A DNA stretch of 64,000 nt from Chryseobacterium luteum. Lineage in GTDB: Bacteria; Bacteroidota; Bacteroidia; Flavobacteriales; Weeksellaceae. Both the position numbers and the translations under genes were made by a program. Below, in pieces: positions 3,186 through 46,128 of this stretch. The stretch lies in NCBI RefSeq assembly GCF_000737785.1, contig NZ_JPRO01000003.1, positions 1 to 64,000 of the forward strand. Direction: 5' to 3'. The notes under the pieces were generated by a model that had not been told where the DNA came from, did no database searches, and saw only the letters and a program-made list of their open reading frames with translations. Within the stretch, counting starts at the first letter, position 1. Each line of letters begins with the position of its first letter.

Positions 3186-5306
3186 TTATTCTTTATTCTT
3201 TAACAGTATCCATCCTGAATATTTCGTTTCGGTACTGTTTTTATCGTTTTCGTTCCATGAGATCGTATACCAGTAAGTACCGGTAGGGATTTTTTTGCCG
3301 GAAGCAGTTCCGTCCCATTTATAATCTCTCATTTTATTAGCTTCGTAAAGCTTGTTTCCATATCTGTCATATACGATAAAAACAAGGTTTTTCTTATAAG
3401 ACAGGGCAGAATAGTCGATCTCGTCGTTCACCTTATCTCCGTTCGGAGTGATTGCATTGATCAGATTCGGTACAGTAACTGTAATTTGAACCGGGGTACA
3501 GTTGTAAGAATCCTTTAAGAATATCTTATTTTCTCCTCTTGGAAGTCCGCTGAATGTATTAGTCGATTGCCAGTTGGTCCCGTCTATTGAATACATATAA
3601 GGAGGAGTTCCGCCTGAAGCATTCACTGTAATAGTATTGTTGCTGATGTCTACACTTGAGATTACCGGTTGTGAAGAAGCAGAAACCGTTACGGTCTGAA
3701 GCGTGAAACATTTTCCTGTTTTCAGCTTCACCCAGTAAACTCCTATTCCTGCATCGTTAATAGCTTGTGTGGTATCACCGGTACTCCATTCGTATCCGTC
3801 AAATCCAGGCCCTGCATCCAGTGTTGTTTTACCTTCAGCACAGATCGTTTTGTCTTTCAGAACGGCAGATTTTACCGGAGGAAGAACTTTTAGTGTGATC
3901 TTAGCAATCGCATAACACTGATTGGTATTGGTAACTCTTACATACACTTCAGTACTTGTCGTAAGGTAGGTGGCCGGAGTACCAATCGGGTTGGTTTCAG
4001 CTTTAGCATCGTTTAATGTTTTATAGAATTTTTTTGTCTGTCCTGCCACGGCTCCTACATCCGCTTTTGTCAGGTCAAATTTAGCTTGCATGATATCATT
4101 TTCGATATAGCACTCTTCCAGTAAGGCATCCTTTAGTGTAACCACCGGATGGAAAGATAATGTGATTGCGGCTGTTGCTGTACATCCAAACGCAGAAATT
4201 ACCTTAACGTATACTATTTTCTCAGCCGAAATATAATCCGAAGGGTTTGTGATTTCGTTAGTATCAGCATTCAGATCGGCAAGGGTAGGATAATATTTTT
4301 TCGTAACGGTACCTGTAAATACATCTGCCGTTGTCAGGTCAAATTTTCCGGTACCTTCACCATTGTTATTACATGCGAAAATAGTAGCATTTTTTGCGGT
4401 TATACTTGCATTTACAAATTTGAACTTACCGCTTATGAAGCATTTATTGATAACGCTGTTTGGGTTTTCCGGATCCAGGTAACGGATTCTGTAGTAATAA
4501 GTAGTCGTCCCGTTTACGGTCGTTATTGTAAGTGGATCATCCCCTGTAATAACATCATTGACATTATCATGGTAAGTCACCTTGAAATTAGGGTTGTTTC
4601 CGTTGATAATACCAGGAGTAAGGGTATCAAAATTAAATTGTGAAGGAAGCCCGCACACCATCACCGTTGAAGGATCGTTTGCATCAGCTGCAGGAATACC
4701 AGGTGGAAGAAAAGGGTTAGGTGCCAGAACAGGATCATTAAATGCTGAACTCAGGCTGGCAGTACCGCCCCAAATCATTTTGAATCCGTCCGGAGAGCTT
4801 CTGAAATTGTCTACGACCAGATAATACGTTTCTCCTGCCTGTACCTGCATGTAAGGGCTCCACTCAAATGAATTCCCTGCCTGTCCGTTTGTATTGGGAG
4901 GTGGAGGAGGAGGTAAGGTTAGGGTAAGTCCCGTATTGCCCGTTGGAGTACTACCGTTGTAGTTACATCTCAGCGGTGTTACAAAAACGTTATTGGTGTT
5001 TAAAGAGGTACATCCATTAGTGGTAGGACCATATACTGCAAAATCGTAATCGTCGGCATTAACATTAGGATCAATAACGAATGTAAGAGTTCCAGATGTG
5101 GCAATAGTAAAAGTATACCATACCGAGAAATTTTCACTTCTGCCCAAACATCCGTTTGCGGATAAATTCTCTACAACATTTCCATGTCCTGATGGAGTGT
5201 ATGATAGTTCAGAGTTTCCGCAAATAGGGATTGCGCTAATGCAATCGGACTGTGCGTAAAACACCTGCGCTATAAATAAAATTAAAAGGAGTAATGTTTT
5301 TTTCAT
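3186..5306 (-). CDS. Secreted protein with gliding-motility-associated C-terminal domain (paralogue 1)
   Basis: This 706-residue protein starts with a signal peptide ending near YAQ. The next 200 residues form a beta-rich domain with a proline run (PPPPPP at about 137-142) and a GETYYLVVDNF motif, similar to PPC-type sandwich domains. Repeated beta modules follow, each with a Cys and a 'LTTADV..KKYYPTLADLNA' type pattern. The last 90 residues (LINAITPNGDKVND ... YDRYGNKLYE ... WDGT ... GTYWYTI) are the CHU_C/gliding-motility-associated C-terminal domain, a T9SS export signal of the type B class. It is the downstream one of two tandem paralogues. The function is unknown, but a surface or adhesin role is likely. 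It ends at a strong hairpin terminator. Confidence 0.88.
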   Translation of the reverse strand: MKKTLLLLILFIAQVFYAQSDCISAIPICGNSELSYTPSGHGNVVENLSANGCLGRSENFSVWYTFTIATSGTLTFVIDPNVNADDYDFAVYGPTTNGCTSLNTNNVFVTPLRCNYNGSTPTGNTGLTLTLPPPPPPNTNGQAGNSFEWSPYMQVQAGETYYLVVDNFRSSPDGFKMIWGGTASLSSAFNDPVLAPNPFLPPGIPAADANDPSTVMVCGLPSQFNFDTLTPGIINGNNPNFKVTYHDNVNDVITGDDPLTITTVNGTTTYYYRIRYLDPENPNSVINKCFISGKFKFVNASITAKNATIFACNNNGEGTGKFDLTTADVFTGTVTKKYYPTLADLNADTNEITNPSDYISAEKIVYVKVISAFGCTATAAITLSFHPVVTLKDALLEECYIENDIMQAKFDLTKADVGAVAGQTKKFYKTLNDAKAETNPIGTPATYLTTSTEVYVRVTNTNQCYAIAKITLKVLPPVKSAVLKDKTICAEGKTTLDAGPGFDGYEWSTGDTTQAINDAGIGVYWVKLKTGKCFTLQTVTVSASSQPVISSVDISNNTITVNASGGTPPYMYSIDGTNWQSTNTFSGLPRGENKIFLKDSYNCTPVQITVTVPNLINAITPNGDKVNDEIDYSALSYKKNLVFIVYDRYGNKLYEANKMRDYKWDGTASGKKIPTGTYWYTISWNENDKNSTETKYSGWILLKNKE

Positions 5307-5367
5307 GTTTAAAATGATTTTTGTGAGACAAAATCTGAGTAAAATAAAGTTATCAGCATTTATGTTG

Positions 5368-5394
5368 AAAAAAACCGCCCCGTAGAGCGGTTTT
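5368..5394 (-). terminator. Intrinsic terminator of the second gliding-associated gene
   Basis: The stem AAAACCGC/GCGGTTTT has an 8-base loop and is followed on the minus strand by a run of seven T. It lies between the two tandem paralogues, 14 bases after the stop of the gene ending at 5409. The two copies are therefore probably separate transcription units. Confidence 0.82.
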
Positions 5395-5408
5395 ATTTTG
5401 ACAGGAGA

Positions 5409-7547
5409 TTATTCTCTATTTTTTACCATTATCCATCCTGAGAATTTGAATGGAGTATTCTTTTTATCATTTTCATTCCACGTTACAGAATACCAGTAAG
5501 TTCCCGTAGGAATCTTTTTGCCGGCTACTGTTCCGTCCCATTTAAATCCATTAGATTTATCAGCCTGGTGGATTTTGGTACCATATCTATCAAAGATACT
5601 GAATATAAGACCATTTTTACCCGATAATGCTGAATAATCTATAACATCATTTACACCGTCTCCGTTTGGAGTGATAACATTAATAAGGTTAGGTACAACA
5701 ACTGTTATCTCAATAGGTTCGCAGTCATACGAATCTTTTACATATACTGTATGGTCTCCTCTTGAAACATTGGTGAATACGTTGGAGTCCTGCCAGTTAA
5801 TATTATCCATAGAATATTTGTATTCAGGAGTTCCGGCAATTACATTCACGGTTATGCTTGTGTTAGAGATATCAATGCTTGAAACAACCGGCTGTTCAGA
5901 AGCATATATTTTTACATCCTGTAATGTGATACAGTCTCCGGTTTTTAATTTCACCCAGTATGTTCCTACGCCTACGTTGTTAATAACCTGTGTGGTTGCT
6001 CCTGTGCTCCACTCATAACCATTGAATCCAGGACCTGCATCCAGGCTGGTTTTATCCTCAATACAAATGATCTTATCTTTAAGCACGTTAGAGTAAACAG
6101 GGGAAAGTACGGTTAATGTTACTTTCGCAATAGAATAACATCCCTGCGCGCTAATTACTTTTACGTAGATTACTCCGGATGGAGCGGTATAGGTTAAGAA
6201 ATTTAAAATTTCATTGGTTCCGTTTACTGCATCTGTTAGAGATGGGTAATATTTTTTTGTAGCACTTGTCAATGTAGTTACTGGTGCATTGCCTAGGTTG
6301 AATGTTCCCAGTGAAGGATTTGTTTGAAGGAAACATGTTCTCAAAGAAGCATCAGTCACGGGCACCAGCGGATGGAACTTCAGGGTGATCTCTGCTGTTG
6401 CTGTACATCCGAATTCATTGGTTGCCTTTACAAATATTTTTCCTTCAGCCGATACGAACTGGTATATAGCAGGGCTGGTGATCTCATTTGTTCCTGCATT
6501 AAGGTCGAACATCGTAGGATAATACTTCAGCACATCGGTTGGTGCAGCTCCTATAGTAGCAGTGGTAAGATCGAACATTGCTGTCCCGGAGCCATTATTG
6601 CTGCAGCTTGTAAGCGTAGCATTTGTTAAAGTAAAGCTGCCATTTCTGAATTTGAATTTTCCTGTAATAAAACAGCCGTTCATAGGGTTCGTAGGGTTCA
6701 CAGGGTCCTGATATACAATTCTGTAATAGTAAACTGTTGTAAGGTTTACAGTCTCTGTAGTCACAGGATTTCCTCCTGTAATGGCATCGTTTGTATTTTT
6801 ATGGTAAGACACCTTGAAATTCGAGCTGTTACCGTTAATAATTGCTGTACTCAGTGAAAGAAAGTTAAATGGGGTAGCAAGTGAACATACCGTTACCTCG
6901 TTCGGATCATTAGGATTGGCTGCCGGAAGTCCGGGCGTAACAAACGGAAACGGAGCCAGAGTAGAATCGTTGAACGCAGAGCTTAAACTGGCGGTACCTG
7001 TCCATGTCAGTGAGAATCCATCCGGAGAACTTCTGAAGTTATCTACAACAAGATAATAAGTCTCACCGGCCTGTACTACCATATGTGGGCTCCATTCATT
7101 CTGGTTTCCTGCATTTCCATTGGTATTTGGCGGTGGTGGCGGCGGTAGTGTTAATAATAGCCCGGTATTTCCCTGTGAGGATCCGGTACCGTTGTAGTTA
7201 CATCTCAGTGGCGTTACAAAAACGTTATTATTGTTCAAAGAAGTACAGCCGTTAGTGGTAGGGCCATAAACTGCAAAATCATAATCGTCGGTATCAACGT
7301 TAGGATTAATAACAAAGGCTAATGTTCCGGAAGTTGCTGCCGTAAACGAGTACCATACCGAAAAGTGTTCATTGTCTGTATCGTTCAGACAAGAATTGAT
7401 TCCAATACCTTCCAGTACGTTTCCTGGTCCGGCAGGGGTATAGGAAATATCTGAGTTTCCGCAGATAGATATTGCACTAATACAATCTGACTGAGCATAT
7501 AAGATGCGGGAGCAGATGATTAGAAAAACGAGTAATGCTTTTTTCAT
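5409..7547 (-). CDS. Secreted protein with gliding-motility-associated C-terminal domain (paralogue 2)
   Basis: This 712-residue protein is the paralogue of the gene ending at 3186, with the same order: signal peptide ending in YAQ, an N-terminal domain beginning SDCISAISICGNS with a PPPPPP run and GETYYLVVDNF, several Cys-containing beta modules, and a C-terminal CHU_C-type domain (LINVITPNGDGVND ... FDRYGTKIHQ ... WDGT ... GTYWYSV). The N-terminal 200 and last 200 residues are very similar between copies, while the central modules differ more. It is predicted to be exported by the type IX system and to sit at the cell surface. The ligand is unknown. Confidence 0.88.
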   Translation of the reverse strand: MKKALLVFLIICSRILYAQSDCISAISICGNSDISYTPAGPGNVLEGIGINSCLNDTDNEHFSVWYSFTAATSGTLAFVINPNVDTDDYDFAVYGPTTNGCTSLNNNNVFVTPLRCNYNGTGSSQGNTGLLLTLPPPPPPNTNGNAGNQNEWSPHMVVQAGETYYLVVDNFRSSPDGFSLTWTGTASLSSAFNDSTLAPFPFVTPGLPAANPNDPNEVTVCSLATPFNFLSLSTAIINGNSSNFKVSYHKNTNDAITGGNPVTTETVNLTTVYYYRIVYQDPVNPTNPMNGCFITGKFKFRNGSFTLTNATLTSCSNNGSGTAMFDLTTATIGAAPTDVLKYYPTMFDLNAGTNEITSPAIYQFVSAEGKIFVKATNEFGCTATAEITLKFHPLVPVTDASLRTCFLQTNPSLGTFNLGNAPVTTLTSATKKYYPSLTDAVNGTNEILNFLTYTAPSGVIYVKVISAQGCYSIAKVTLTVLSPVYSNVLKDKIICIEDKTSLDAGPGFNGYEWSTGATTQVINNVGVGTYWVKLKTGDCITLQDVKIYASEQPVVSSIDISNTSITVNVIAGTPEYKYSMDNINWQDSNVFTNVSRGDHTVYVKDSYDCEPIEITVVVPNLINVITPNGDGVNDVIDYSALSGKNGLIFSIFDRYGTKIHQADKSNGFKWDGTVAGKKIPTGTYWYSVTWNENDKKNTPFKFSGWIMVKNRE

Positions 7548-34656: not shown

Positions 34657-34664
34657 TACTTTTG
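34657..34664 (+). promoter_or_regulatory. -7 box before the KAS III gene
   Basis: TACTTTTG matches TANNTTTG and lies 18 bases before the ATG at 34683, in the short divergent gap shared with the acyltransferase gene. Confidence 0.5.
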
Positions 34665-34682
34665 CAAAGAAAAAGAATTTAT

Positions 34683-35657
34683 ATGATAAAAGTTTCCAAA
34701 ATAGAATATTATTTGCCTGAGAAGGTTCTTACAAATGAGGATCTTGAGAAAGAATTCCCTGAATGGAGCTCCGATAGAATTCACGAGAAAGTAGGCATCA
34801 GGCAGCGCCATATTTCTTCGGACAGCGAGACCGTTTTGGAACTTGCCGTAAAATCTTCCGAAAAAATTTTCGAAAATTATGACAGGAATAAAGTAGATTT
34901 TATTCTTTTCTGTACCCAAAGTCCGGATTATTTTCTTCCCACTACTGCCTGTATCCTTCAGGACAGACTGGGCCTTAGAAGAAATATAGGAGCAATGGAT
35001 TTTAATCTTGGCTGTTCCGGATTCGTTTATGGACTGGCTTTTGCTAAAGGATTAGCAGCAGCCGGTATTGCGAAAAGTATTTTACTGATCACATCAGAAA
35101 CCTATACCAAGCATATCAACCCAAAAGATAAGGCCAACCGAAGTATATTCGGGGATGCATCCGCATCGGTGATTGTAGAGAAGGATGAAAATGCTGAAGG
35201 TTACCAGTTCTGCCTCGGTACAGACGGAAGCGGAGCCGAAAATCTTATTGTAAAGAAAGGAGCTTTCAAAAAAGATTTTGAGCTCAATCCGGAAAATGAT
35301 TTTGAGCCGGAAAATCTTTACATGAACGGACCCGAAATTTTTAATTTCACCATTGAAAATATTCCGGGACTGGTAAAAGAAACTTTGGAAACAAACGGGC
35401 TGACGATGGATGATATCGATCATTTTGTTTTCCACCAGGCCAATTCTTTTATGCTGAATTATTTAAGGAAAAAGACCAAAATACCAGCAGAAAAGTTTTA
35501 TATTGACATGGAAAACACGGGAAATACAGTTTCCGCAACCATTCCTATCGCCCTGAAAAATATGATGGATAAAGGAATGCTGAAGGAAGGAGACCGGGTC
35601 TTAATGGCTGGTTTCGGAGTAGGATATTCCTGGGGAGCAACCGTGATGAAATTTTAA
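34683..35657 (+). CDS. 3-oxoacyl-ACP synthase III-like enzyme
   Basis: A 324-residue thiolase-fold enzyme. The full KAS III triad is present: C111 in NLGCSGFVYG, H251 in FVFHQAN and N281 in ENTGNTVSAT. It is probably active in condensing an acyl-CoA or acyl-ACP with malonyl-ACP. I chose the ATG at 34683, which gives the usual MIKVSKIEYYLPE start; the ATG at 34662 overlaps the -7 box. It stands in an operon with an acyl carrier protein and an SDR reductase inside a glycan locus, so it is probably not the housekeeping FabH but makes a special short acyl group for sugar decoration (inference). Confidence 0.88.
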   Translation: MIKVSKIEYYLPEKVLTNEDLEKEFPEWSSDRIHEKVGIRQRHISSDSETVLELAVKSSEKIFENYDRNKVDFILFCTQSPDYFLPTTACILQDRLGLRRNIGAMDFNLGCSGFVYGLAFAKGLAAAGIAKSILLITSETYTKHINPKDKANRSIFGDASASVIVEKDENAEGYQFCLGTDGSGAENLIVKKGAFKKDFELNPENDFEPENLYMNGPEIFNFTIENIPGLVKETLETNGLTMDDIDHFVFHQANSFMLNYLRKKTKIPAEKFYIDMENTGNTVSATIPIALKNMMDKGMLKEGDRVLMAGFGVGYSWGATVMKF

Positions 35658-35688
35658 GTAGTAACATAATGTTGTAAAATAAAAATAT

Positions 35689-35922
35689 ATGAAGACATCC
35701 GTTTTTTTAGAGAAATTACAAGAAGAATTAGAAGAAGACGAAACCCTGACAACTGAAACCAACCTGAAACAGCTGGAAAGCTATGATTCTATCAGCCTGC
35801 TTTCCGTTATTGCATTTGTTGATGAAAATTTCGATAAGAAAATTGACACCAAGCATTTTAAAGATATAGAAACCGTTTCTGATCTTATGAATGCTATTGG
35901 TAAAGAAAACTTTGAAGATTAA
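35689..35922 (+). CDS. Acyl carrier protein 1
   Basis: A 77-residue four-helix carrier protein with the phosphopantetheine site S34 in YDSISLLSV, the DS-x-x-L context of ACPs. It is acidic and normal in length. It lies 31 bases after the KAS III gene and overlaps the SDR gene start by one base (TAATG), so the three are co-translated. It probably carries the growing acyl chain between the two enzymes. Confidence 0.88.
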   Translation: MKTSVFLEKLQEELEEDETLTTETNLKQLESYDSISLLSVIAFVDENFDKKIDTKHFKDIETVSDLMNAIGKENFED

Positions 35923-36680
35923 TGAACCAGTTTTCTTTAAAAGATAGAACAATTCTTATTACAGGCGCTTCTTCCGGTATCGGGAGAAGCTGTTCTGTAG
36001 AATGCAGCAAAAGCGGGGCAGACCTTATTCTTATTGCCAGAAACGAAGAAGAACTGAAGAAGACAGTATCCATGTTGGCTCCGGATACCAAAGCCGAAAC
36101 CATTATTGCAGATATCACCGGAATTGAAAATCTTGAAGACCTGATCGCTGAAAAAGTAGCAGTTTCAGGTAAGATATCTGGATTTATCCACTGCGCGGGA
36201 ATAGAAAAAACCCTTCCGCTGAAAAAGCATACTCCCCAGCTCTACACAGATATCTTTGCAGTCAATGTGATCTCAGGCTTTGAAATTGCCAAAATTTTAT
36301 CCCTGAAAAAATATAAAAACGAAACTTCCAGTTTTGTCTTCATTTCCTCAGTAGCCGGAATGGTGGGCGAAATAGGAAAAGCTGCTTATTCAGCCAGTAA
36401 AGGTGCTGTAGTTTCCGGAGCGCGCTCTCTGGCTATGGAACTTTCAAGAAGCGGAATCAGGGTGAATAGTGTAAGTCCAGCCATGGTAAATACCCCCATA
36501 CTGGAAAAAATGTTTGAAAACATTGGTGAAGATGCCGCAGAAGAGATTCTTAAAAAACATCCGCTGGGAATAGGCGAGCCTGAAGATGTGGCCAACGCAT
36601 GCATTTTCCTGCTTTCAGATGCTTCAAAATGGATTACGGGATCCAACCTTGTGGTAGACGGAGGATATTCCGCCCATTAA
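35922..36680 (+). CDS. SDR oxidoreductase, 3-oxoacyl-ACP reductase-like
   Basis: A 252-residue short-chain dehydrogenase. The nucleotide loop is TGASSGIGRS (about residues 15-24). The active site has S in FISSVAGMVG and Y-x3-K in AYSASKGAVV. The end WITGSNLVVDGGYSAH is typical of FabG. Placed after KAS III and ACP, it should reduce the 3-oxoacyl-ACP to 3-hydroxyacyl-ACP. It is the last gene of the plus-strand block. Its stop overlaps that of the converging GT4 gene by 4 bases. Confidence 0.88.
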   Translation: MNQFSLKDRTILITGASSGIGRSCSVECSKSGADLILIARNEEELKKTVSMLAPDTKAETIIADITGIENLEDLIAEKVAVSGKISGFIHCAGIEKTLPLKKHTPQLYTDIFAVNVISGFEIAKILSLKKYKNETSSFVFISSVAGMVGEIGKAAYSASKGAVVSGARSLAMELSRSGIRVNSVSPAMVNTPILEKMFENIGEDAAEEILKKHPLGIGEPEDVANACIFLLSDASKWITGSNLVVDGGYSAH

Positions 36681-41256: not shown

Positions 41257-41264
41257 TATTTTTG
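41257..41264 (+). promoter_or_regulatory. -7 box before the FkbH/ACP/MBOAT block
   Basis: TATTTTTG matches TANNTTTG. It starts 6 bases after the acyltransferase stop and ends 16 bases before the ATG at 41281. It would give the FkbH block its own promoter and supports the small ORF at 41281 as the first gene. Confidence 0.5.
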
Positions 41265-41280
41265 CAGCAAACAAAACACA

Positions 41281-41412
41281 ATGAAAAAAAACACGAATGT
41301 TCCCAACCCATATACTGCATATCTATATGCTGAAGATCCGTCGCTTACGGAAACCTTTAAATGGAATAACACAGACCTGACTGAAATGGAACCCGGTACA
41401 TTCATTTTTTAA
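41281..41412 (+). CDS. 43-residue small ORF at the head of the FkbH block
   Basis: An ORF with an ATG 16 bases after a -7 box, ending 14 bases before the FkbH-like gene. The product begins MKKNTNVPNPYTAYLYAED and ends in EPGTFIF. It is polar, rich in Asn/Thr/Tyr, with no signal peptide or membrane segment. I do not recognise it. Position and spacing are those of a real gene; alternatively it is a translated leader or a decayed remnant. Its length means that homology alone will be weak evidence. Confidence 0.45.
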   Translation: MKKNTNVPNPYTAYLYAEDPSLTETFKWNNTDLTEMEPGTFIF

Positions 41413-41426
41413 TAAAATAAAAATTC

Positions 41427-43154
41427 ATGTACAAAACGTTTTCGGAACTGAAAAAAGGGCTCCGCAGAGACATCCCTCAGCTTAAGAAGGTCAGGGTGGC
41501 ATTACTGGGCGACACGGCGACACAATTTCTCAATGTTGCTTTGAGGGGAACTGCTGTGAATGAAGGCTTTGAATTTGAAATTTTTGAAGCGGATTTCGGC
41601 CAGATTTCCCGGCAGATCCTGGATCCTGCCTCAGAATATTATGAGTTCAATGCAGACTATACGATCATCTTTGAGTCTTCTCATAAATTATTAAGCCAAT
41701 ATTATAAATCTTACGATACGCAGAATACTTTTGCGGAAAATAAGATTTCCTATATCCGGGACCTTTACAGAACGATTCAGGACAGGACTAAAAGCAGGCT
41801 GATTTACTGTAATTTCCCGATGATCAATAATCAGATCTTTGGAAACTTTTCCAACAAGGTAGAATCTTCTTTTGTTTTCCAGCTGAATAAGCTGAATTAT
41901 CTGCTTTCGGCGGAACTGGCGATCAGAAATGATAATTTTTTTATTGCAGATCTCCTTTCAATACAGAATAAATGGGGAAGAGACTTTATGTTTTCTCCAA
42001 ACATTTATATCAACACGGAAATGGTGATTTCACTGGATGCTCTTCCGATTGTTGCCCACCATATTACAGGGATTATTTCTTCTCTGGAAGGGAAGTTTAA
42101 GAAATGTCTGATCCTGGATCTGGATAATACAACCTGGGGCGGTATCATTGGTGATGACGGTCTGGAAAAGATCCAGGTAGGAAGTCTGGGAATAGGAAAA
42201 GCCTTTACCGAATTTCAGTATTGGATCAAAGCACTTCAGAGAAGAGGGGTGATCCTGGCTGTTTGCAGCAAGAATGATGAAGATAAGGCTAAGGAACCTT
42301 TTGAAAAGCATCCGGATATGGTCCTTAAGCTGGACGATATTGCCGTTTTTGTGGCTAATTGGGATAATAAAGCGGATAATATCAGAAAGATCCAAAGCAT
42401 TCTGAATATCGGATTGGATTCCATGGTGTTTCTTGACGACAACCCGTTTGAAAGAAATATTGTACGGGAAAATCTTCCGGAAGTCTGCGTCCCTGAACTA
42501 CCTGAAGATCCGGCAGAATATCTGGAATATTTATATGGCCTGAATCTTTTTGAAACCTCCAGCTTCTCGCAAAATGATGCGGAGCGAACGAAACAATACC
42601 AGGTGGAAGCACAGAGAGCGGTTGATCTGGACAGTTTTACCAACGTAACAGATTTTCTGAAAAGCATGAATATGGTTTCTGACGTGAAATCTTTCGACAG
42701 CTTTTCAAAGCCGAGAGTTTCACAGCTGACCCAGCGTTCCAACCAGTTTAATTTAAGAACGGTAAGGTACACGGAACAGGACGTGGAAAACCTGATCAAT
42801 TCTGAAGAACACCACACTGTTTCTTTCACTTTGGAAGATAAATATGGTGATAACGGGTTGATCTGTGTGGTGGTTCTGGAAAAGAAAGATCCGGAAACTC
42901 TTTTTATAGATACCTGGCTGATGAGCTGCCGTGTCCTTAAAAGAGGGATGGAAGATTTTACCCTGAATACCATTGTGGAAACGGCCAAAAAGCACGGATT
43001 CAAAAATGTTGTGGGAGAATACCTTCCTACCGCAAAGAACCAGATGGTAAAGGATCATTATGAAAGATTAGGATTTACAGAACATAATGGACAATGGATA
43101 CTGAACGTCAGTGAATACCAGCCAAAAGAAGTATATATTATTAATAAAAATTAA
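41427..43154 (+). CDS. FkbH-like HAD-IIIC enzyme, probable acyl loading of ACP
   Basis: A 575-residue protein with the three-part layout of the FkbH/HAD-IIIC family: an N-terminal GDS-like domain (LLGDTATQFL, near 27-36), a HAD phosphatase-fold domain with the nucleophile motif LILDLDNTTWGG at 228-239, AVCSKNDEDKA and FLDDNPFER, and a C-terminal GNAT-like domain (RVLKRGMEDFTLNTIVE ... DHYERLGF). Characterised members take 1,3-bisphosphoglycerate, remove the phosphate and attach glyceryl to an ACP thiol. The ACP gene follows 8 bases later, so glyceryl-ACP or a related product is likely. The rest of the methoxymalonyl pathway is absent. Confidence 0.87.
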   Translation: MYKTFSELKKGLRRDIPQLKKVRVALLGDTATQFLNVALRGTAVNEGFEFEIFEADFGQISRQILDPASEYYEFNADYTIIFESSHKLLSQYYKSYDTQNTFAENKISYIRDLYRTIQDRTKSRLIYCNFPMINNQIFGNFSNKVESSFVFQLNKLNYLLSAELAIRNDNFFIADLLSIQNKWGRDFMFSPNIYINTEMVISLDALPIVAHHITGIISSLEGKFKKCLILDLDNTTWGGIIGDDGLEKIQVGSLGIGKAFTEFQYWIKALQRRGVILAVCSKNDEDKAKEPFEKHPDMVLKLDDIAVFVANWDNKADNIRKIQSILNIGLDSMVFLDDNPFERNIVRENLPEVCVPELPEDPAEYLEYLYGLNLFETSSFSQNDAERTKQYQVEAQRAVDLDSFTNVTDFLKSMNMVSDVKSFDSFSKPRVSQLTQRSNQFNLRTVRYTEQDVENLINSEEHHTVSFTLEDKYGDNGLICVVVLEKKDPETLFIDTWLMSCRVLKRGMEDFTLNTIVETAKKHGFKNVVGEYLPTAKNQMVKDHYERLGFTEHNGQWILNVSEYQPKEVYIINKN

Positions 43155-43162
43155 ATAAAAAC

Positions 43163-43402
43163 ATGAATAAAAACGAAATTTTATCTAAGCTTACCAAGGT
43201 CTTCCGTGACGAATTGGACAATGAAGAAATTGTATTAAACACTGAAACTACAGCCGATGATGTTGAAGAATGGGATTCCCTTTCCCATATTCAGTTAATT
43301 GTTGCCGTGGAAAAGGCTTTCGGAATCCGTTTTACTTCTTCTGAAATTCAGGGGTGGAATAACGTAGGTGAAATGGCTGATTCTATAGATTCAAAGCTGT
43401 AA
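43163..43402 (+). CDS. Acyl carrier protein 2
   Basis: A 79-residue carrier protein with the phosphopantetheine site S39 in EEWDSLSHIQLI. The WDS-x-x-H/Q pattern is typical of the stand-alone ACPs found next to FkbH-like enzymes and D-alanyl carrier proteins, and differs from the YDS site of the other ACP at 35689. Its stop overlaps the start of the VOC gene by one base, which indicates coupled translation. It probably carries the acyl group delivered by the FkbH-like enzyme. Confidence 0.9.
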   Translation: MNKNEILSKLTKVFRDELDNEEIVLNTETTADDVEEWDSLSHIQLIVAVEKAFGIRFTSSEIQGWNNVGEMADSIDSKL

Positions 43403-43782
43403 TGAAATTTCATCATGTTGGGGTTGCCTGTAAAGATATACAGGCAGAACTCCAAAATATCAGACAGCTGCATACAATTATTGAAGAAACTCCTGTTGTT
43501 TTTGATCCTAACCAGCAGGCAGAACTTTGCATGGTTACCGTGGAAGATGGCTTAAATATTGAGTTTGTTTCCGGAAAGCCTGTAGAAAATCTTTTGAAAA
43601 AGAGAATTTCATATTATCATATCTGCTACGAAGTTGAAGATATTGATAAGGCTATAGAACATCTTACACAAAGCGGAGGAATGCTTATTTCCCCTCCCAA
43701 AGAAGCTGTTCTTTTTAATAACCGGAAAGTAGCTTTCCTGATGCTTTCTTATGGAATTGTTGAACTTTTAAACAGTAACTAA
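43402..43782 (+). CDS. VOC-family protein, methylmalonyl-CoA-epimerase-like
   Basis: A 126-residue vicinal-oxygen-chelate protein made of two beta-alpha-beta-beta-beta units: KFHHVGVACKDI at the start and YYHICYEVEDIDKAI near 70. Potential metal ligands are His in the first strand, His in YYHICYE, and Glu in IVELLNS at the end. The closest type by length and motifs is methylmalonyl-CoA epimerase. In this operon it might change the stereochemistry or the alpha-carbon of the ACP-bound acyl group. This is inference. It overlaps the MBOAT gene by one base. Confidence 0.8.
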   Translation: MKFHHVGVACKDIQAELQNIRQLHTIIEETPVVFDPNQQAELCMVTVEDGLNIEFVSGKPVENLLKKRISYYHICYEVEDIDKAIEHLTQSGGMLISPPKEAVLFNNRKVAFLMLSYGIVELLNSN

Positions 43783-45200
43783 TGCAGTTTACATCATTAG
43801 TATTCATTCTTTTTTTCTCAGTTGTTTTTGCTGTGTATTGGTGGGTTTTAGGTAAAAAGCTTAAAGCTCAGAATATCTTTTTATTGTTAGCCAGCTATGT
43901 ATTTTATGCCAACTGGGACTGGCGGTTTTTGGTGCTTTTGATCATAAGTTCAGCTGTCAGTTATTATTTAGGGTTGAAAATTTCAGAAAGCAAGACTCCT
44001 CAGAGGAAGAAACTACTGGTAAACTTAGGGCTTCTTTTCTCCATTGGAACCCTGTTTTATTTTAAGTATTTTAATTTCTTCATAGATTCTTTTGCGCAGT
44101 TATTTCATATTAAAAGTACACTTACCCTAACGATAATTCTTCCTTTGGGAATCAGCTTTTATACGTTTAGAATGATAAGTTATCTGCTCGATATTAAGAA
44201 TAATAAGCTGAAAGCAGAGACCGATGTACTGGCGTTTTTTAATTACATTGCCTTCTTTCCGAGCATGACTTCTGGGCCTATTGATAAGGCAGGATTGTTA
44301 CTGCCACAATTAAAGAAAGAACGGATTTTTACCCTGGAAAACAGCTCAGATGCTGTAAGGCAGATTCTTTTGGGAGCATTTAAAAAATTAGTTGTTGCCA
44401 ACAGTATTACACCGGTTACTCAGGAAATATTTCAAAACTATGATCATCTTTCAGGGAGCACGGTTGCTTTCGGGATGATCTTATTCCTTTTTGAAATGTA
44501 TGCGGATTTTTCCGGATATTCCGATATGGCCATTGGTTTTGCCCGGCTTTTAGGATTTAAAATAACGAGAAACTTTGCCTTCCCCCTGTTTGCGCAGAAC
44601 ATCGCAGAATACTGGAGAAAGTGGCATATTTCGCTGACTTCATGGCTGACGGAGTATGTTTTTACTCCTTTGGTCATTCAGTTCAGGGATTATGAGAAGA
44701 AGGGACTCATTGCCGCCATTATTTTAAACTTTATATTAATAGGAGCCTGGCACGGACCGAGATTTACTTTTGTGCTGTTTGGTCTGCTTCACGGGCTTTA
44801 TTATATCCCTTTGATTTTAAATAATAAGCTGAACAAGAAGAAAAAGTTTTCAAAGTCTGTTCCTACATTTCAGGAATTGGGGAATATCATACTGACAATG
44901 GCAATGGTCTGTTTTGCTTTGGTACTGTTCGTTGCGCCAACACTTAAAGACGCATTGGGAATGTACGGAAGGATTTTCAGTCTCTCTGTTTTTTCAGTTC
45001 CGGAATTTATTAAGATTAAGATTTTAGGATTAATAGGAATTGTAATATTGATAGACTGGCTGAATAAAGATCAGGAACACGGTCTTGAAATCAGCAGGTT
45101 CAGGCCTGTTACGAGAAGACTTTTTTACGTATTTCTTATTTTCATGATCTTGTATTTCGGTGTGTTTGGTAATAGTAGTTTCATCTATGAACAGTTCTGA
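43782..45200 (+). CDS. MBOAT-family membrane O-acyltransferase
   Basis: A 472-residue protein with about 10-12 membrane helices, of the DltB/AlgI type. The family motif is complete: NIAEYWRKWHISLTSWLTEYVF, then AWHGPRFTFVLFGLLHGLYY with the invariant His at about residue 337. These proteins pass an acyl group from a carrier on the cytoplasmic side to an acceptor outside. Directly after an ACP gene and before an SGNH-like gene, it matches the DltB position of the Dlt pathway. The likely donor is the acyl-ACP of this operon and the acceptor a surface glycan. Confidence 0.9.
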   Translation: MQFTSLVFILFFSVVFAVYWWVLGKKLKAQNIFLLLASYVFYANWDWRFLVLLIISSAVSYYLGLKISESKTPQRKKLLVNLGLLFSIGTLFYFKYFNFFIDSFAQLFHIKSTLTLTIILPLGISFYTFRMISYLLDIKNNKLKAETDVLAFFNYIAFFPSMTSGPIDKAGLLLPQLKKERIFTLENSSDAVRQILLGAFKKLVVANSITPVTQEIFQNYDHLSGSTVAFGMILFLFEMYADFSGYSDMAIGFARLLGFKITRNFAFPLFAQNIAEYWRKWHISLTSWLTEYVFTPLVIQFRDYEKKGLIAAIILNFILIGAWHGPRFTFVLFGLLHGLYYIPLILNNKLNKKKKFSKSVPTFQELGNIILTMAMVCFALVLFVAPTLKDALGMYGRIFSLSVFSVPEFIKIKILGLIGIVILIDWLNKDQEHGLEISRFRPVTRRLFYVFLIFMILYFGVFGNSSFIYEQF

Positions 45201-45201
45201 T

Positions 45202-46128
45202 ATGAAAAAGTTTTTATTTAAAATATCCTTTTATATTGTTGCCGTTGCTGCTGTTTTATTGTGGCTGGGAAGCTATGCAGACGGTAATACGGATGATAAT
45301 TACAGACATTTTACAGGTCCCAAGCCTTCCAATATGATCTTGGGAGATTCCCGCGGTTCCCAGGCTTTGGTTCCTGATGTTTTAGACGGGAAGTTGAAAG
45401 ATAGAAAATTTGATAATTTTTCCCTCAACCTTACCGAATCACCTTACGGGCAGATCTATCTTGAAGCAATAAAGAAAAAGCTTCACCCTGGCACAAAGGA
45501 TGGCATCTTCATCCTGACTGTTGATCCGTGGAATGTATCCACCGGTAAAGACGTAAAAGATGCGAAAGAATATACCGAGAATACTTCCGCGCTGGCAGAT
45601 ATGCATTTTTACGACATGGCACCCAATTACGAATACCTTTTAAAGCATTTTCCCAAAAGCTGGTTTAATATCTACAACGACAGGGAAGCAGTGGGAAGAT
45701 CCAATACGTATCTGCATAAAAACGGGTGGATGGAAGTAACGGTTGACATCAATCCTGCCGATTTAAGAAAAAGAGAAGCCAGCAAAATAACCCAGTACAA
45801 AGAATTTGCAGCCAATCAGAAAATATCCCGTTACAGGCTGGATGCCCTGGAAGACATCATTCAATATCTTGACACTAAAGGAACGGTTTATATTGTCAGA
45901 ATTCCCGGATTTAAGGGAATTATGGATATAGAAAATGCATTTTCCCCTGATTTTAATCAAATTATAGGATCTATTGCCCAAAAAAAGAAGGTGAAATTTT
46001 TTGACTTTTCTTCACAATACGATCAGTACATCTATACGGACGGAAACCATATGTACAAAGAGTCTGGAAAAGTATTTACTGCCCGGATTGCCGATTCTAT
46101 TCTTCTGGATAAGAAGATGTTAAAATAG
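45202..46128 (+). CDS. Membrane-anchored SGNH-like protein, partner of MBOAT
   Basis: A 308-residue protein starting one base after the MBOAT stop; longer in-frame starts inside the MBOAT gene are less likely. An N-terminal membrane anchor (FLFKISFYIVAVAAVLLWLGS) puts the rest in the periplasm. The motif NMILGDSRGSQ (Ser near 50) and a late DGNH (about 279-282) are the Ser and Asp-His blocks of SGNH hydrolases, as in DltD and AlgJ/AlgX. It probably receives or hands over the acyl group outside the membrane. It converges with the next GT2 gene, overlapping its end by 9 bases. Confidence 0.82.
   Translation: MKKFLFKISFYIVAVAAVLLWLGSYADGNTDDNYRHFTGPKPSNMILGDSRGSQALVPDVLDGKLKDRKFDNFSLNLTESPYGQIYLEAIKKKLHPGTKDGIFILTVDPWNVSTGKDVKDAKEYTENTSALADMHFYDMAPNYEYLLKHFPKSWFNIYNDREAVGRSNTYLHKNGWMEVTVDINPADLRKREASKITQYKEFAANQKISRYRLDALEDIIQYLDTKGTVYIVRIPGFKGIMDIENAFSPDFNQIIGSIAQKKKVKFFDFSSQYDQYIYTDGNHMYKESGKVFTARIADSILLDKKMLK

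Follow-up and report, generated by a model that had tools for sequence, protein, structure and literature searches.

A Chryseobacterium luteum operon that may couple FkbH-type carrier charging to MBOAT-SGNH hydroxyacylation of a surface polysaccharide

We analysed a 64,000-nucleotide stretch of Chryseobacterium luteum DNA (positions 1 to 64,000 of contig NZ_JPRO01000003.1, assembly GCF_000737785.1; hereafter the window), in which five genes on the plus strand at 41427-46128 encode an FkbH-type enzyme, an acyl carrier protein (ACP), a VOC metalloenzyme, an MBOAT O-acyltransferase and an SGNH-like transferase. The FkbH gene (41427-43154; 575 amino acids, with FkbH_N, HAD-IIIC and C-terminal domains) is followed after an 8-base gap by the ACP gene (43163-43402; 79 amino acids, Ser39), which overlaps the VOC gene (43402-43782; 126 amino acids) by 1 base. 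The VOC gene likewise overlaps the MBOAT gene (43782-45200; 472 amino acids, His337) by 1 base, and a 1-base gap separates the latter from the SGNH-like gene (45202-46128; 308 amino acids), whose start we took as the ATG at 45202, the list of open reading frames (ORFs) beginning at a GTG at 45160. An earlier sequence-only reading had described five tightly packed genes with intact key residues, and both points were borne out: FkbH carries DLDNT at 231, ACP Ser39 lies in a DSL motif at 38, MBOAT retains His337, and the SGNH-like protein carries GDS at 48 and DGNH at 280. The same reading had the stretch begin at 41281; this coordinate is not the start of FkbH but belongs to a separate small ORF of 43 codons ahead of it.

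The FkbH-type enzyme was recognized by its match to FkbH_N (PF21211, 3e-69) and by TIGR01686 at 308 bits, over the cut-off of 147. Residues D231, D233, D337, D338 and C501, the last of which sits in an SCR motif, are invariant in 113 sequences, all picked with an FkbH profile; the closest solved relative is 3slr, the uncharacterised protein BF1531, and the genome holds only one copy of the gene. FkbH-type enzymes transfer the glyceryl unit of 1,3-bisphosphoglycerate to an ACP (PMC3625739, PMC7489565). By analogy with its family, the window enzyme would charge the ACP with glyceryl in the same manner. The ACP matches PF00550 (PP-binding) and provides a dedicated carrier protein beside the MBOAT, as is expected of a Dlt system.

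The MBOAT matches PF03062 and is the sole such match in the genome. Its C-terminal hexapeptide, FIYEQF (467-472), fits the FxYxxF motif expected of PatA-PatB-type systems; PatA auto-acylates the tyrosine of its own C-terminal hexapeptide, and DltX has the same motif (PMC12148441). Among MBOATs of at least 380 amino acids encoded near FkbH, 76 of 82 terminate in FxYxxF, compared with 1 of 1228 other ORFs of at least 200 amino acids. Four of the six exceptions retain the tyrosine (two YIYEQF, FIYRQI and FIYSRI); the other two, from L038 and L152, are short. A plasmid search for the MBOAT matched 136 records, every one below 60% identity. Upstream of FkbH, L114, L116-L118, L120, L121 and L123 also carry a second MBOAT gene, whose partner of 321-322 amino acids has a GSSK motif; on the reverse strand of L038 (about 3557-6243), two neighbouring MBOAT-SGNH gene pairs are fragmented, whereas relatives have intact copies.

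The SGNH-like protein has no Pfam match. Its predicted structure (predicted local distance difference test 79, predicted template modelling score 0.78) comprises an N-terminal helix followed by a domain that matches SGNH structures: the model aligns with PatB (8tlb) at Z 12.2 and with DltD (7dxm) at Z 11.3 over 228 residues, PatB and several esterases scoring as high as DltD or higher. All 14 sequences compared keep G48, S50, D280 and H283, so that residues and fold matches together indicate an SGNH-fold partner with the serine and D-x-x-H of a PatA-PatB-type system.

Comparison with characterized systems placed the operon between two of them. The Dlt system (DltA, DltB, DltC, DltD and DltX), which D-alanylates teichoic acid, also uses a carrier-protein thioester as donor, an MBOAT, the tyrosine of FxYxxF as a shuttle and an SGNH-fold partner (PMC12148441). 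However, the window operon has FkbH where Dlt has the ligase DltA, its motif is fused to the MBOAT whereas DltX carries it in Dlt, and its acyl group is probably a hydroxyacid. None of the 11 genome matches to TIGR01734 (DltA) reaches the cut-off, and the MBOAT scores 170 bits against TIGR04091 (DltB), under the equivalog cut-off of 375; an ordinary Dlt system was rejected on these grounds. These sub-threshold DltA and DltB scores, together with a shuttle motif built into the MBOAT itself, place the system outside Dlt. Peptidoglycan O-acetylation by PatA-PatB shares the fused C-terminal FxYxxF and the separate SGNH partner, but PatA takes acetyl-CoA, and such pathways are said to be without a carrier protein (PMC12148441), whereas the window operon includes an ACP, its loader and a tailoring enzyme. 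The system appears to combine Dlt-like carrier feeding with a PatA-like fused shuttle, and to work like Dlt without belonging to it.

We compared the operon across Chryseobacterium, where FkbH of 79-100% identity is present in 25 of 60 genomes, the window's own included. ACP and MBOAT lie downstream of FkbH in all 25 loci; between FkbH/ACP and MBOAT, eight operons carry VOC, six carry a MaoC-like gene and an SDR gene (a Pfam-based assignment in L030), and 11 carry nothing. A further genus genome out of the phylum sample described below (L090) is of the MaoC type. In five VOC-type operons (L031, L032, L035, L036 and L043), an extra ORF of about 300 codons, which is a methyltransferase by Pfam in L031, the one examined, stands between FkbH and ACP; in L052, also of the VOC type, a membrane-like protein of 442 amino acids occupies this place. 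Two genus genomes (G006 and G005; loci L054 and L055) have a distant FkbH (36% identity) with a VOC (36-37%) and an ACP; there, an SDR is 44-45% identical to the SDR at 35922 of the window, and a DegT-like aminotransferase was noted by eye.

The gene trees of these operons separate into two groups. With three tailoring states (VOC, MaoC or none), the fewest possible changes on a tree is two, and on trees of 26 rows this minimum is reached by ACP (2) and MBOAT (2), with 8 changes for FkbH and 5 for SGNH. Flanking genes require 6 changes (GT2b, 21 rows), 6 (GT2c, 16 rows), 5 (methyltransferase, 20 rows) and 7 (GT4, 20 rows). Among the 15 operons with VOC or MaoC, the seven MaoC rows group together as one clade in the ACP and MBOAT trees (support 96 and 99 in the Shimodaira-Hasegawa-like approximate likelihood ratio test, the only support measure of these quick IQ-TREE runs). 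In approximately unbiased tests on the same rows, the MaoC clade was rejected for FkbH (p 5e-5) and for SGNH (p 2e-9); the groups were set by gene content and the tests were run once the first trees had been seen. L053, which is without an MBOAT, was omitted from the 26-row trees, and the L038 row, of type 'none' and outside the 15-row tests, uses the SGNH of the second pair, the first being fragmented. Together, these results show that ACP, the tailoring genes and MBOAT share one history, and that FkbH, SGNH and the flanking genes do not share it. This history is consistent with an MBOAT adapted to the acyl-ACP that neighbouring enzymes supply, and the gene context argues for acyl-ACP, not acyl-CoA, as the MBOAT donor.

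To follow the gene order beyond the genus, we ran a VOC alignment search over 84,980 species genomes and analysed the best 80 of 215 relatives, 14 of which are Chryseobacterium loci (L114-L127). ORFs were chosen greedily, and an antisense ORF replaced the ACP in some loci (e.g., L136, L138 and L182). Within 4 kb of VOC, FkbH was found in 69 of these 80 loci, MBOAT in 41 and both in 36. Among the 66 loci outside Chryseobacterium, VOC is directly followed by MBOAT in 20; in 16 of these, one of the last two same-strand ORFs before VOC encodes FkbH, and in 17 the next ORF encodes 313-381 amino acids. The 20 belong to Methylomonas/Methylococcaceae (L129, L131, L133), Proteiniphilum (L143), Clostridia, Bacilli and one Firmicutes metagenome-assembled genome (MAG). 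The sequence-only reading had proposed searching genomes for HAD-IIIC, ACP, VOC, MBOAT and SGNH genes in this order, and the order does recur outside the genus in several phyla; its recurrence in Methylomonas-type, Clostridia and Bacilli MAG contigs identifies a real operon. The 11 genomes without FkbH within 4 kb of VOC, mostly incomplete MAGs in which binning errors are possible, carry FkbH elsewhere in five cases, with none seen in six, one of which, L143, sits on a contig that ends just upstream of its ACP.

From the side of FkbH, a phylum sample of 395 genomes gave an FkbH match in 33, of which 28 are above the cut-off. In 29 loci from this sample, an FkbH ORF was found in 28, an ACP within 3 kb in 13 and a VOC within 4 kb in 5. 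An MBOAT lies within 4 kb in only 4 of the 28 FkbH loci, two of them in the window's genus, and the window's own locus is a fifth case beyond these. The other two of the four, L098 and L100, lie outside the family and show FkbH-ACP-MBOAT followed by a protein of 307 or 319 amino acids with weak DUF1574 or AlgX matches. FkbH thus stands beside an MBOAT in a minority of cases, but repeatedly so. FkbH, ACP and a related VOC also lie near each other on archaeal contigs of Candidatus Thorarchaeota (L158, L160, L161). In Lachnospiraceae (L171, L174, L175, L178, L183, L185, L186, L190), the VOC gene is opposite in strand to FkbH and adjoins a gene for a protein of about 500 amino acids, with no Pfam match in L171, the one examined.

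The VOC protein matches Glyoxalase_4 (PF13669) and stays under the cut-offs of both TIGR03081 (methylmalonyl-CoA epimerase; 31 bits, cut-off 115) and TIGR00068 (glyoxalase I; 28 bits, cut-off 120). H5, E54, H73 and E121, which we take from their positions in known enzymes to be the four metal ligands, are invariant in 80 of 80 sequences, as are D35 and C75; H73 falls in the pattern used for the search, and H5, E54 and E121 lie outside it. Methylmalonyl-CoA epimerase and glyoxalase I both generate a metal-bound enediolate beside a thioester, a chemistry that suits alpha-proton exchange on a 2-hydroxyacyl-ACP; we accordingly propose, tentatively, that VOC is an epimerase of this substrate. It may instead be a dehydratase converting glyceryl-ACP to pyruvyl-ACP, or a glyoxalase converting the hemithioacetal of methylglyoxal and holo-ACP to lactoyl-ACP. 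The two solved structures that its sequence matches carry the name glyoxalase I or lactoylglutathione lyase, the two histidines and two glutamates correspond to the metal ligands of E. coli glyoxalase I, and in L132 and L145 VOC-MBOAT stands without FkbH in the stretch. Nevertheless, both of these genomes carry FkbH elsewhere, and the proximity of FkbH to VOC in most loci suggests that the two work together, which weakens the idea of a VOC acting without FkbH. Moreover, L130 and L136 each combine VOC, MaoC, SDR, FkbH and MBOAT in a single operon, where a dehydratase VOC would be redundant with MaoC; the idea that VOC merely stands in for MaoC and SDR is weakened by the same two loci. We regard a function of VOC other than epimerization as unlikely.

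A somewhat less probable alternative is that two separate pathways happen to be neighbours, with MBOAT and SGNH forming an O-acetyltransferase fed by acetyl-CoA and FkbH, ACP and VOC serving a cytoplasmic acyltransferase. Outside Dlt, MBOAT-SGNH pairs are regarded as acyl-CoA users (PMC12148441), hexapeptide and AT3 acyltransferases are encoded within the cluster, and FkbH-ACP-VOC sets occur without MBOAT, as beside the aminotransferase of L054 and L055. In contrast, ACP and MBOAT track the tailoring enzymes, unlike the adjacent SGNH and FkbH or the flanking genes; the five-gene order turns up repeatedly, in several phyla; and the genome has a single FkbH and a single MBOAT gene. The supply of a hydroxymalonyl or methoxymalonyl unit, for which FkbH is known to act with two dehydrogenases and an O-methyltransferase (PMC7489565), is very improbable: a methyltransferase is present in some sister operons, but the window operon has no dehydrogenase gene, and in 11 of the 25 genus operons MBOAT directly follows FkbH-ACP.

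We consider it probable, at roughly 0.68, that the operon encodes a carrier-fed MBOAT-SGNH system that puts a three-carbon hydroxyacid on a surface polysaccharide. Good support for the architecture that the sequence-only reading proposed, in which FkbH replaces DltA, the acyl group passes from ACP through MBOAT to SGNH and the target lies outside the membrane, comes from the synteny beyond the genus, the FxYxxF terminus, the SGNH-type fold of the last protein and the common history that links ACP and MBOAT to the tailoring genes. The three-carbon nature of the acyl group, the stereochemical role of VOC and the glycan target are inferred. Several observations weigh against this interpretation. 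ACP, tailoring genes and MBOAT adjoin within about 2 kb, and linkage may account for some of their common history. Some FkbH-ACP-VOC sets have no MBOAT within 4 kb (e.g., L165, L169 and L193), so the acyl group can have other destinations. In the phylum sample, MBOAT is seldom near FkbH, and the solved structures closest to VOC are of glyoxalase I. Furthermore, FxYxxF is also terminal in 6 of 6 MBOATs without FkbH nearby and is thus a sign of the MBOAT-SGNH mechanism rather than of the acyl group, and hydrolases match the SGNH model as strongly as PatB does.

In the proposed mechanism, FkbH would move the glyceryl unit of 1,3-bisphosphoglycerate onto holo-ACP, as its family suggests, and VOC would remove and restore the alpha proton of the glyceryl thioester to give the other epimer. 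The acyl group would then pass from the ACP arm to Tyr469 in the MBOAT's own FIYEQF, by comparison with PatA and DltX, and the SGNH-like protein would use Ser50 to transfer it to a sugar hydroxyl of a polysaccharide beyond the inner membrane. In sister operons the middle step would be swapped, being absent (leaving plain glyceroyl), replaced by methyltransferase and VOC, or replaced by MaoC and SDR, which would most simply dehydrate glyceryl to pyruvyl and then reduce it to lactoyl. The bryostatin starter reportedly follows the same logic, although our literature search did not turn this up. More broadly, and with less confidence than in the basic system, we suggest a modular, cross-phylum hydroxyacylation of glycans, in which a common FkbH and SGNH might serve a swappable ACP/tailoring/MBOAT cassette that yields glyceroyl, its epimer, O-methyl-glyceroyl or lactoyl, with VOC as a new 2-hydroxyacyl-ACP epimerase and with non-Dlt MBOAT-SGNH pairs capable of being carrier-fed; we hold this wider scheme to be somewhat short of an even chance.

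Known pathways offer partial precedents. Tetronate and methoxymalonyl polyketide systems (Tmn16, AbyA2, Mad7, Mad14) share FkbH, a stand-alone ACP and glyceryl from 1,3-bisphosphoglycerate (PMC3625739, PMC7489565), but the window operon is without a FabH-like ligase or dehydrogenase, and its product apparently passes to a membrane acyltransferase. The flagellin of C. jejuni bears di-O-methyl-glyceric acid (PMC3068675), and the FkbH-domain gene cj1302 provides a precedent for glyceric acid on a surface glycan with FkbH in such a locus; in the available portions of these sources, however, cj1302 is not tied to the glyceric acid group and no MBOAT-SGNH route is described (PMC3068675, PMC7099621). 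D-glyceroyl is likewise a known O-antigen substituent of Pragia fontium 97U124, on a bacterial surface polysaccharide as proposed here, but as an amide on an amino sugar (PMC10609480). A literature search of open-access full text found no description of an FkbH-MBOAT system, in agreement with the earlier statement that no described system has exactly this gene set.

The operon lies in a cluster rich in glycosyltransferases and acetyltransferases, which also holds the hexapeptide and AT3 acyltransferases and continues with an ABC exporter, a DegT aminotransferase, FdtA, RmlA, RmlB and a nucleotide sugar dehydrogenase. RmlA and RmlB are over their cut-offs; the best NCBIfam names for the ABC exporter, Wzt and Wzm, are below theirs. 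The acceptor is likely an ABC-exported surface polysaccharide containing a dTDP-aminosugar; no Chryseobacterium polysaccharide structure was recognised in the literature search. At 34662-36680, consecutive genes for KAS III, an ACP and an SDR form a second acyl-making set in the cluster, which perhaps supplies a 3-hydroxyacyl group.

Upstream of FkbH, the plus-strand element TATTTTTG at 41257-41264 fits TAnnTTTG, which we take to be the Bacteroidota -7 promoter consensus. The identical eight bases precede the small ORF (41281-41412, plus strand) in 13 of 14 relatives, and the fourteenth, L042, has TACTTTTG there, also a match to TAnnTTTG. The small ORF lies between this element and FkbH; its frame is retained among relatives and stops 8-18 bases before FkbH. 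Counted by codon position (1, 2 and 3), the differences among six relatives that share the window's type are 140, 143 and 187 in the small ORF and 222, 119 and 783 at the start of FkbH; among six relatives of the other type, the corresponding counts are 142, 93 and 123, and 238, 119 and 855. With almost no codon-position bias, and a stop codon inside the frame in L120, a conserved protein is unsupported; the small ORF is perhaps a leader.

Bacterial MBOAT-SGNH acylation is divided in the literature into Dlt, which uses a carrier and D-alanine, and the remaining systems, regarded as carrier-less because they are fed by acyl-CoA (PMC12148441). If our interpretation is correct, this operon would break that division, with an MBOAT that is fed by an ACP, bears a fused shuttle and depends on FkbH for charging, and FkbH, an enzyme type familiar mainly from antibiotic biosynthesis, would gain a role outside polyketide assembly. 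It would also bring a new VOC activity on carrier-bound 2-hydroxyacyl groups, make glyceroyl- and lactoyl-type esters predictable from genome sequence, and mean that surface antigens diversify through the exchange of a small acyl-making cassette.

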